In this document: one piece after another, positions 56,773 to 59,043 of the stretch | Layout: each line of letters starts with the position of its first letter | How positions within the stretch are numbered: the first letter of the stretch is position 1 | Source of the DNA: an uncultured Pelagibacteraceae bacterium | GTDB lineage: Bacteria > Pseudomonadota > Alphaproteobacteria > Pelagibacterales > Pelagibacteraceae | Assembly (NCBI GenBank): GCA_902622245.1 | Contig: CACNPC010000002.1 | Span: forward strand, 62,001-126,000 | Reading direction: 5' to 3' | DNA length: 64,000 nt | Notes under the pieces: model-generated | The model's input: the letters and a program-made list of their open reading frames with translations, nothing else | Databases searched by the model: none | What the model was told of the DNA's origin: nothing | Made by a program: the position numbers and the translations under genes

Positions 56773-57071
56773 AAATGGATCTTAAAGAAAAAGTAATTGC
56801 TGAAATAAAAAAAATTTATGATCCTGAGATACCTGTTAATATATACGAATTAGGATTGATATACGATATTATCGTTAATAATTCAGAAGTTAAGGTTAAA
56901 ATGACTTTAACCACACCAAATTGTCCAGTAGCTGAAAGTTTGCCTAAAGAAGTTAAAGACAGTATATTAGAAATTAAAGAAGTTTCAAAAGTAGATCTTG
57001 ATTTAGTCTGGGAACCACCATGGGATAAATCAATGATGTCTGAAGCTGCAAAACTTGAATTAAATTTATGA
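56769..57071 (+). CDS. sufT: SufT/MIP18-family Fe-S maturation protein
   Basis: A 100-aa DUF59 protein. 'KIYDPEIPVNIYELGLIYDI' and 'TLTTPNCPVAESLPKEVKDS' with the conserved Cys identify the family, followed by 'VDLVWEPPWDKSMMSE'-like ending. It assists maturation or delivery of clusters. The start could be the first or third codon (both ATG). It overlaps both neighbours by 4 bases. Confidence 0.9.
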   Translation: MKMDLKEKVIAEIKKIYDPEIPVNIYELGLIYDIIVNNSEVKVKMTLTTPNCPVAESLPKEVKDSILEIKEVSKVDLDLVWEPPWDKSMMSEAAKLELNL

Positions 57072-57403
57072 CAAAACAAATTATAACATTAAGCGATAAC
57101 GCAGCTCAAAGAATAAAAGAAATTATGTCTAATGCTGAAAAAGACTCTTTAGGAGTTAGAGTTGGAGTTAAGTCAGGTGGGTGCGCAGGGATGTCTTATG
57201 TTATGGAGTACACGAAAGAAGCAAACCCAAATGACGAAGTAGTAGAAGATAAAGGTGTGAAAGTCTTCATAGACTCTGCAGCGGTAATGTATTTACTTGG
57301 AACAGAAATGGATTTTAAAAAAGAAAAATTTTCTTCACAATTTGTATTTAATAACCCGAATGAAACGGAGAGATGTGGATGTGGAGAATCCTTTAAAATA
57401 TAG
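57068..57403 (+). CDS. sufA: A-type Fe-S carrier (SufA/HesB family)
   Basis: A 111-aa carrier with the three A-type Cys: 'SGGCAGMSYVMEY' and C-terminal 'RCGCGESFKI'. It transfers clusters from SufBCD to apo-targets. It is the last gene of the iscR-sufBCDSUTA run. No clear terminator follows before the mini-gene at 57463. Confidence 0.94.
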   Translation: MTKQIITLSDNAAQRIKEIMSNAEKDSLGVRVGVKSGGCAGMSYVMEYTKEANPNDEVVEDKGVKVFIDSAAVMYLLGTEMDFKKEKFSSQFVFNNPNETERCGCGESFKI

Positions 57404-57462
57404 TATTTAATATACGCATATCAGCATTGCGTTTATTGCATATCTATGATAGAATCATTGAT

Positions 57463-57627
57463 ATGAACACTTTTGAGCATAAAAACCTGATTAACTCTGA
57501 AGTTAAAACTCAAAAAAGAAAATCTTTATTCAGAAGTTTAATTAAACCAGTAGAAGCGGGCGCTCATGGCACCCTCAACTACGTGGTTAAAAAAGGTTTA
57601 GGAAAAAATAAAATAGCTAAAAAATAA
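57463..57627 (+). CDS. Unrecognised 54-aa basic protein with a GC-rich internal segment
   Basis: I do not recognise this protein. From the ATG at 57463 it reads 'MNTFEHKNLINSEVKTQKRK' and ends in a Lys-rich tail. Thirteen codons before the tail use 8 G/C third positions (GCG, GGC, GGC, ACC, CTC, AAC, TAC, GTG), unlike anything around it. That stretch folds into a two-stem hairpin, so the locus may be a small RNA or have dual function. There is no Shine-Dalgarno. A TATGAT at 57445-57450 could be a -10 box. The ORF track start 12 codons earlier has no extra support. Confidence 0.45.
   Translation: MNTFEHKNLINSEVKTQKRKSLFRSLIKPVEAGAHGTLNYVVKKGLGKNKIAKK
57545..57588 (+). ncRNA. Candidate structured RNA element (two-stem hairpin)
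   Basis: AACCA-GTAG pairs with CTAC-g-TGGTT (9 pairs with one bulged G). Inside a 4x4 internal loop (AAGC/TCAA) lies a second stem, GGG-c-GC with GC-a-CCC, closed by a TCATG loop. The GC content is far above the surroundings. The element sits in the mini-gene 3' of the suf operon and just past the convergent glnA end. It matches no RNA class I can name. Confidence 0.4.
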
Positions 57628-57638
57628 AAAAGCTATTT
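57611..57638. terminator. AT-rich inverted repeat between convergent mini-gene and glnA
   Basis: AAATAGCT pairs with AGCTATTT around a 12-base A-rich loop, spanning the 3' ends of the 54-aa ORF and glnA. Its location between convergent genes suits a bidirectional terminator, but it is weak and lacks a good T run. Confidence 0.35.
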
Positions 57639-59043
57639 AACAACTATAGTACATATCAAACTCAATAGGATGAGGTGTATGTTCAAAGTTGTGTATCTCC
57701 TCAAATTTAAGAGCAATATAAGCATCAATTTGATCGTCAGTAAATACTCCACCTTGAGTTAAAAACTTTCTATCTTTATCTAAACTTTCCATTGCTTCTC
57801 TTAATGATCCGCAAACAGTTGGAACTTTTTTAACTTCCTTCTCTGATAAAGCGTAAAGATCTTTATCAAAGGATTTGCCTGGATCAATTTTATTTTTGAT
57901 GCCGTCAATTCCCGCCATTAACATAGATGCAAATGTTAAATATGGATTACCAGATGCATCTGGAAATCTAATTTCACATCTTGCCCCTTTTTTGCTTAGA
58001 GTTATCGGAATTCGACAAGATGCCGATCTGTTTCTTGCAGAATAAGCAAGCAACACTGGAGCTTCAAAACCTGGAATTAATCTTTTATAACTATTTGTTG
58101 TAGCATTTGAAAACGCATTAATAGCCTTAGCATGTTTAAGTATTCCACCAATATAATAAAGTGCAGTTTGTGACAAACCTGAATATTTATTTCCAGAAAA
58201 AACTGGAGTTTTTCCTTTCCAAACTGATTGGTGAACGTGCATTCCTGATCCATTATCACCTTTTACAGGTTTAGGCATAAACGTAGCAGTTTTACCAAAT
58301 GAATGTGAAACCATTTGAACTACATATTTGTATAATTGAACATTATCGGCTTGATCAACTAATGTGCCAAAAAGCATTCCAAGTTCGTGCTGACTTGGAG
58401 CAACTTCATGGTGATGTTTTTCAACTGTGATACCTACGTCTCTTAAACCTTTTAGGTATTCACCTCTTATATCCTGAGCACTATCTACTGGAGGAACTGG
58501 AAAATATCCACCTTTAACTCCAGGTCTATGACCCATATTCCCATTTTCATAACTTTTTCCAGAATTATATGGTCCTTCTGTACTATCTATCGAAAAACTT
58601 GTTTCGTTCATGTCGTTTTTGATTTTTACATCATCAAAAACAAAAAACTCTGGCTCTGGACCGAAGTAAGCTTTATCACCTATACCAGTCTTCTTTAAAT
58701 AAGCTTCAGCTTTCTTCGCTATCCCTCTTGGATCTCTTTCATAAGGATTTCTTTTAATTGCATCTAATATGTCGCAAAATAAAACAAGAGTATTATGAGA
58801 TGTAAATGGATCAACGATTTGTCTATTTAAATCTGGTTTTAATATCATGTCAGATTCATTTATCGCTTTCCATCCAGCAATAGATGATCCATCAAAAAAT
58901 ACACCATCGGTTAACATGTCCCCATCGACTACCGATGCATCCATAGTTAAGTGCTGTAATTTACCTCTTGGGTCTGTAAATCTTAAATCGACAAACTCAA
59001 TTTGCTTGTCTTTCATCATTTTTAGAACTTTGCTTGCGCTCAT
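57637..59043 (-). CDS. glnA: Glutamine synthetase, type I
   Basis: A 468-aa enzyme that assimilates ammonia into glutamine. 'FVDLRFTDPRGKLQHLTM', 'YFGPEPEFFVFDDV', 'GSGMHVHQSVWKG' and 'NRSASCRIPIT' are GSI-beta motifs. 'KDLYALSEKE' holds the Tyr that would be adenylylated by GlnE. The start is backed by AGGAG six bases upstream. No sigma-54 -24/-12 box or recognisable riboswitch is in the upstream spacer, and no ntrBC follows it. Confidence 0.96.
   Translation of the reverse strand: MSASKVLKMMKDKQIEFVDLRFTDPRGKLQHLTMDASVVDGDMLTDGVFFDGSSIAGWKAINESDMILKPDLNRQIVDPFTSHNTLVLFCDILDAIKRNPYERDPRGIAKKAEAYLKKTGIGDKAYFGPEPEFFVFDDVKIKNDMNETSFSIDSTEGPYNSGKSYENGNMGHRPGVKGGYFPVPPVDSAQDIRGEYLKGLRDVGITVEKHHHEVAPSQHELGMLFGTLVDQADNVQLYKYVVQMVSHSFGKTATFMPKPVKGDNGSGMHVHQSVWKGKTPVFSGNKYSGLSQTALYYIGGILKHAKAINAFSNATTNSYKRLIPGFEAPVLLAYSARNRSASCRIPITLSKKGARCEIRFPDASGNPYLTFASMLMAGIDGIKNKIDPGKSFDKDLYALSEKEVKKVPTVCGSLREAMESLDKDRKFLTQGGVFTDDQIDAYIALKFEEIHNFEHTPHPIEFDMYYSC

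Follow-up and report, generated by a model that had tools for sequence, protein, structure and literature searches.

The GC-rich hairpin examined here, which lies in a 64,000-nucleotide stretch of DNA (hereafter the window) from a SAR11 genome of 1.34 Mb and 98% completeness, almost certainly serves, before anything else, to encode part of a conserved small protein. We consider, with good confidence, that the locus is best explained as a conserved small-protein gene with a clade-specific hairpin in its coding sequence. An earlier note had proposed a functional RNA structure, or a dual coding/RNA element, nested in a 54-codon mini-gene, and its sequence and coordinates for the 44-base segment proved correct. 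Evolution has demonstrably preserved the protein and no new RNA, since the hairpin belongs to one clade of marine SAR11 bacteria and sits inside a well-conserved gene. The features of the locus are collected in Table 1.

Table 1. Features at the sufA–glnA junction, in window coordinates
Feature	Position	Strand	Details
SufA-type Fe-S assembly protein, upstream neighbour	57068..57403	+	NCBIfam: TIGR00049 passes the cut-off, TIGR01997 misses it by 1 bit
Putative operator, GCATATC direct repeats	57416-57422, 57438-57444	+	Spaced by 22 bp, one on each side of the -35
Predicted sigma-70-type promoter	57427..57455	+	TTGCGT 57427-57432, 17-bp spacer, TAGAAT 57450-57455
54-aa small-protein gene	57463..57627	+	Protein MNTFEHKNLINSEVKTQKRKSLFRSLIKPVEAGAHGTLNYVVKKGLGKNKIAKK
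GC-rich two-stem hairpin	57545..57588	both	Codons 28-42 of the small gene; minus strand more stable
Part of the small protein coded by the 44 bases, its most conserved stretch			KPVEAGAHGTLNYVV
Region of the 54-aa small protein			KPVEAGAHGTLNYVVK
A/T-rich stem, sequence and fold	57603..57638	-	AAATAGCT...AGCTATTT, then TATTTTTT in the glnA direction
glnA, type I glutamine synthetase, convergent neighbour	57637..59043	-	NCBIfam TIGR00653, 645 bits

A small-protein gene between sufA and glnA

The mini-gene was borne out more strongly than the earlier note had claimed. In a sample of 399 genomes from the genus, which includes many incomplete assemblies, 249 have a homologue, and 64 named contigs carry one. 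In the alignment, which includes proteins down to ~40-50% identity, 12-13 columns are invariant, V30, A34, G36, T37, Y40, K43, K44 and G45 among them, and dN/dS was 0.10 in the window's own clade and 0.14 and 0.08 in two other clades. By this comparison of sequences, the gene is protein-coding and under purifying selection. No match was found when Pfam and NCBIfam were searched with the protein, and nothing significant came from solved structures, searched by sequence and by fold, or from a viral fold library compared with the protein model. The model itself (pLDDT 82, pTM 0.49) consists of a single long helix with three short strands.

The position of the gene is fixed: sufA on the same strand, the small gene and glnA on the opposite strand follow in this order at 132 of 134 loci, and NCBIfam matches confirm the identity of both neighbours. 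The earlier note had likewise placed the segment at the end of the suf operon facing the end of glnA. The A/T-rich stem overlaps the glnA stop codon and is a possible terminator of glnA, as read from its sequence and fold. At two loci, L013 and L098, probably from one genome, the small gene has lost its start to a 43-bp deletion and its stop region to another, which also takes away an arm of the A/T-rich stem; the remaining frame and the hairpin are still present.

The gene also appears to have its own promoter. The predicted -10 element ends 7 nt upstream of the ATG (57463), and 78 of 113 distinct sequences upstream of the gene combine a TTGC -35 with a TANNNT -10 at a spacing of 16-17, the -10 ending 6-8 nt before the ATG, an arrangement that shuffled sequences gave in 1.8% of cases (17-bp form). 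A Shine-Dalgarno-like motif was seen in just one of the 113. With the -10 only 7 nt from the start codon, a leaderless mRNA is predicted, and the mRNA of the small gene is probably translated in this form. Two CATA motifs lying exactly 22 bp apart (CATA-N18-CATA) recur in 104 of the 113 regions. The operator motif has a single match in the window, where none was expected; the long operator/promoter motif was matched in 8 of the 10 genomes searched, with at most one copy per genome. A regulator therefore probably occupies the two GCATATC repeats of the putative operator. Taken together, the small gene has a fixed chromosomal site and its own conserved, possibly regulated promoter.

The hairpin and its distribution

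The anatomy described in the earlier note, an outer stem of 9 pairs with a single bulged G, an internal loop, a GC stem and a 5-nt loop, was reproduced. The minimum free energy was -17.2 kcal/mol on the plus strand (z -2.4) and -21.8 kcal/mol on the minus, glnA-sense strand (z -3.8). In the inner stem, 17:27 is a C.A mismatch when the plus strand folds, and the minus strand forms a G.U pair there. On each strand this is the strongest 44-nt fold in the 64-kb window. When the segment was synonymously recoded with the codon usage of the window, folds as strong appeared at P 1e-4 (1 of 10,000) on the plus strand and in 0 of 20,000 recodings on the minus strand; with GC matched as well, the values were P 0.005 and 0 of ~10,400. 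The minus-strand z ranks second among the 4620 coding segments of the window, and the one segment that outranks it folds weakly and has a very narrow spread, which leaves this excess in effect the largest of all. The recoding nulls and this ranking indicate that the hairpin is a real observation, beyond chance. The enrichment in GC-ending codons also holds, with a corrected count of 8 in 14 whole codons and not 13. High GC by itself is reached at four places in the window, so the segment is not unique in this respect; it is present as a single copy in the genome.

One other very strong fold (-16.0 plus, -19.2 minus) was observed at 1969-2022, between two convergent genes, and it had no Rfam match. 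The idea that hairpins are a common device at convergent gene ends was rejected after the examination of 9 junctions (P 0.10, or 0.21 leaving out the hairpin locus).

Within the window's own clade (63 loci), the mean minus-strand z is -8.4, and GC3 is 0.54 within the hairpin versus 0.16 in the rest of the small gene. The other host sequences average z -0.9 on the plus and -1.0 on the minus strand, with a GC3 of 0.20; in most other SAR11 clades z is near 0 although the protein core is kept there. Forty-five distinct phage segments average z -1.1 (plus) and -0.3 (minus), and only one of them has a good fold of its own. Several members of the KEV clade fold better than their recoded versions (z -3 to -5.7). 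Conservation of the hairpin in that clade was nevertheless rejected, since RNAalifold gave no credible consensus structure for it and a two-sided change occurred in 1 pair, which is not above shuffles. In the hairpin clade itself (clade A), the 26 distinct sequences contain 0 pairs with a two-sided change, and 17:27 stays unpaired on the plus strand in 25 of the 26, even though the commoner codon GGT would pair.

Diversity at GC-ending third positions is 0.049 in the hairpin, versus 0.257 in sufA and 0.190 in glnA (permutation P 0.001), a point against pure neutrality, which does not predict such a reduction. It is unevenly spread over the two arms: third-position diversity is an ordinary 0.113 in the 5' arm and 0.027 in the 3' arm, 0.013 from the hairpin to the end of the gene, probably in part due to AAA lysine codons, and 0.024 over the last 15 glnA codons. 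Across the 63 loci, diversity thus stays low (0.013-0.027) without a break over 57569-57684, which takes in the 3' arm, the rest of the small gene and these codons. The observed synonymous variants did not significantly spare the fold in comparison with random ones (P 0.28 plus, 0.10 minus). Selection on a stem would be expected to act on both arms, yet the 5' arm is ordinary, and these data do not show selection on pairing. We conclude that a sequence constraint acts on the 3' arm and beyond, one that AAA-rich codons do not fully explain.

Readings of the hairpin

Neither a structure that functions as RNA nor an RNA class is supported by these results. The Rfam search that the earlier note had called for gave 0 hits in 64 kb, and that note had likewise been able to name no matching class; within 57350-57700, hits were at chance level and none reached the gathering threshold. 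Most other clades lack the hairpin, and in its own clade no pair changes on both sides. The outcome that the note itself had set against its proposal is largely what was found, namely no covariation together with a conserved protein at dN/dS ~0.1. As for a dual coding/RNA element, a clade-level nucleotide constraint persists on the 3' arm only, so that a dual role is conceivable, though unproven and at best clade-specific. In a screen of "Ca. Pelagibacter ubique" for GC-rich conserved segments, structured RNA candidates were proposed in this same group (PMC2704228); unlike the hairpin studied here, they came from intergenic regions only, with conserved coding sequence left out, and the main text mentions neither glnA nor suf.

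Among the alternatives, the one with most in its favour treats the minus-strand hairpin as a clade-limited 3'-end element of the glnA mRNA, serving as an exonuclease block, a weak terminator or the seed of a 3'UTR small RNA. The minus strand does fold best (-21.8), with its G.U in place of the C.A mismatch, the hairpin lies 49-92 nt beyond the glnA stop, and the low diversity is continuous from the 3' arm into the end of glnA. There is also a precedent in GlnZ, a small RNA derived from the glnA 3'UTR in Enterobacteriaceae (PMC9731577). The likeness is one of arrangement, a possible structured RNA just past glnA on the glnA strand; in contrast to GlnZ, the present hairpin lies inside an opposing gene, is clade-limited, and comes with no Hfq match and no U-tract. 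On the minus strand no U-tract follows it (UAAUUAAACUUC), and the arrangement of an intrinsic terminator, a GC stem running directly into a U-tract, was not found in the tail UAAUUAAACUUCUGA; it is the A/T-rich stem with its U-tract that comes before the hairpin, and a terminator scan did not report the hairpin. Moreover, no Hfq match was found in the source genome, 98% complete as it is, most other clades lack the hairpin despite identical gene order, and the 5' arm shows no special conservation. We therefore regard such a 3'-end element as unlikely. Its more specific version, an Hfq-independent regulatory RNA at the glnA 3' end of one SAR11 clade, antisense to the core of the small protein, seems more doubtful again; if true, a single 44-bp stretch would do protein and RNA duty together. 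Our literature search found no paper on a glnA-adjacent small RNA, or on the small gene, in SAR11.

A plus-strand role, in which the hairpin would tune the translation or decay of the small mRNA, appears slightly less probable still. The plus-strand fold is the best of the window and keeps P 0.005 once GC is matched, but its 17:27 non-pair persists where a commoner codon would close it, variants do not spare the fold (P 0.28), and it is missing from most other clades and from phages. Palindromic elements of the Rickettsia type exist in many genomic copies and are inserted in frame into genes. A GC-rich in-frame hairpin in an AT-rich alphaproteobacterial gene recalls them, yet this one has a single genomic copy. 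Since hairpin-less clades carry homologous residues at the same positions of a gap-free protein alignment, nothing was inserted, and this origin was ruled out, a mobile or repeated element being barely conceivable here.

The reading as a conserved small-protein gene remains preferred, and the hairpin is probably a clade-specific, secondary feature rather than a functional RNA. The 44 bases code for the part that is most conserved in a small, basic protein which SAR11 genomes stably retain. Part of the palindrome comes from the G-A-x-G-T core and the Val...Tyr pair of this protein, and GC-ending codons complete it in one clade, as a clade-specific overlay. On this reading the hairpin is not an RNA family but either a quasi-palindrome that is inherited and neutral, or an element of minor weight at the 3' end of the glnA transcript.

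Phage relatives and a possible role

A homologue at L140:849-1040, a phage-type copy amid small phage-like genes on one contig from a SAR11 assembly, was the starting point that led to the phage records; this copy may stem from an infecting or integrated phage. The small protein matched the profile of phrog_32989 (3.6e-7; residues 15-53 against profile positions 16-54 of 54), a family of small pelagiphage proteins in PHROGs of the same length as the host protein, and phrog_32989 was also found independently in the genome (6.1e-7). Agreement did not extend over the full length with the MRDTK N-terminus: the window's clade starts with MNTFE and, among host clades, only another one starts with MRDKK or MRDTK. 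By profile comparison, the small protein is a phrog_32989 homologue over its C-terminal two thirds, and the function of the family is given as unknown in PHROGs. The common C-terminal core is K-x-V-x-x-[GN]-A-[NH]-G-T-x-x-Y-x-[VI]-K-K-G.

Twenty-seven phage records contain homologues, and 26 of these bear the name of a Pelagibacter phage; at least 137 IMG/VR stretches carry one as well. The translated phage proteins share the core and start with MRDTK (one with MRDNK). In six phages inspected the small gene is annotated as hypothetical, and in four of these maturase or terminase genes lie within ~3 kb, a lysozyme gene being also near in one. Whereas the host copies occupy the fixed sufA/glnA site with their own promoter, the phage copies stand among other small genes, and neither the hairpin nor the host promoter was found with them. 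Elsewhere in the class, the family was detected in only 2 of 289 sampled genomes, both of the source genus. Distant homologues (RSKAKEKRER...NGTSGY..KNGPNKGK; L141:808-1032, L142:815-1018) come from a different family of the order and stand amid other genes. The tree rests on too few columns to give the direction of transfer between phage and host.

The protein carries 13 Lys/Arg versus 3 Glu (net charge ~ +10). As it is so strongly basic, it might act by binding nucleic acid or a nucleic-acid machine, a suggestion we make tentatively. Its binding partner, in cell and phage alike, would then be either nucleic acid or some protein complex of the host. Being common to SAR11 and its phages, it is a candidate gene for taking over or controlling the host.

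Taken together, the hairpin is an example of a strong coding-sequence fold that resembles an RNA without covariation. What was suspected to be an RNA becomes a concrete, unnamed protein target in one of Earth's most abundant bacterial groups, and one that many phages infecting SAR11 carry as well.
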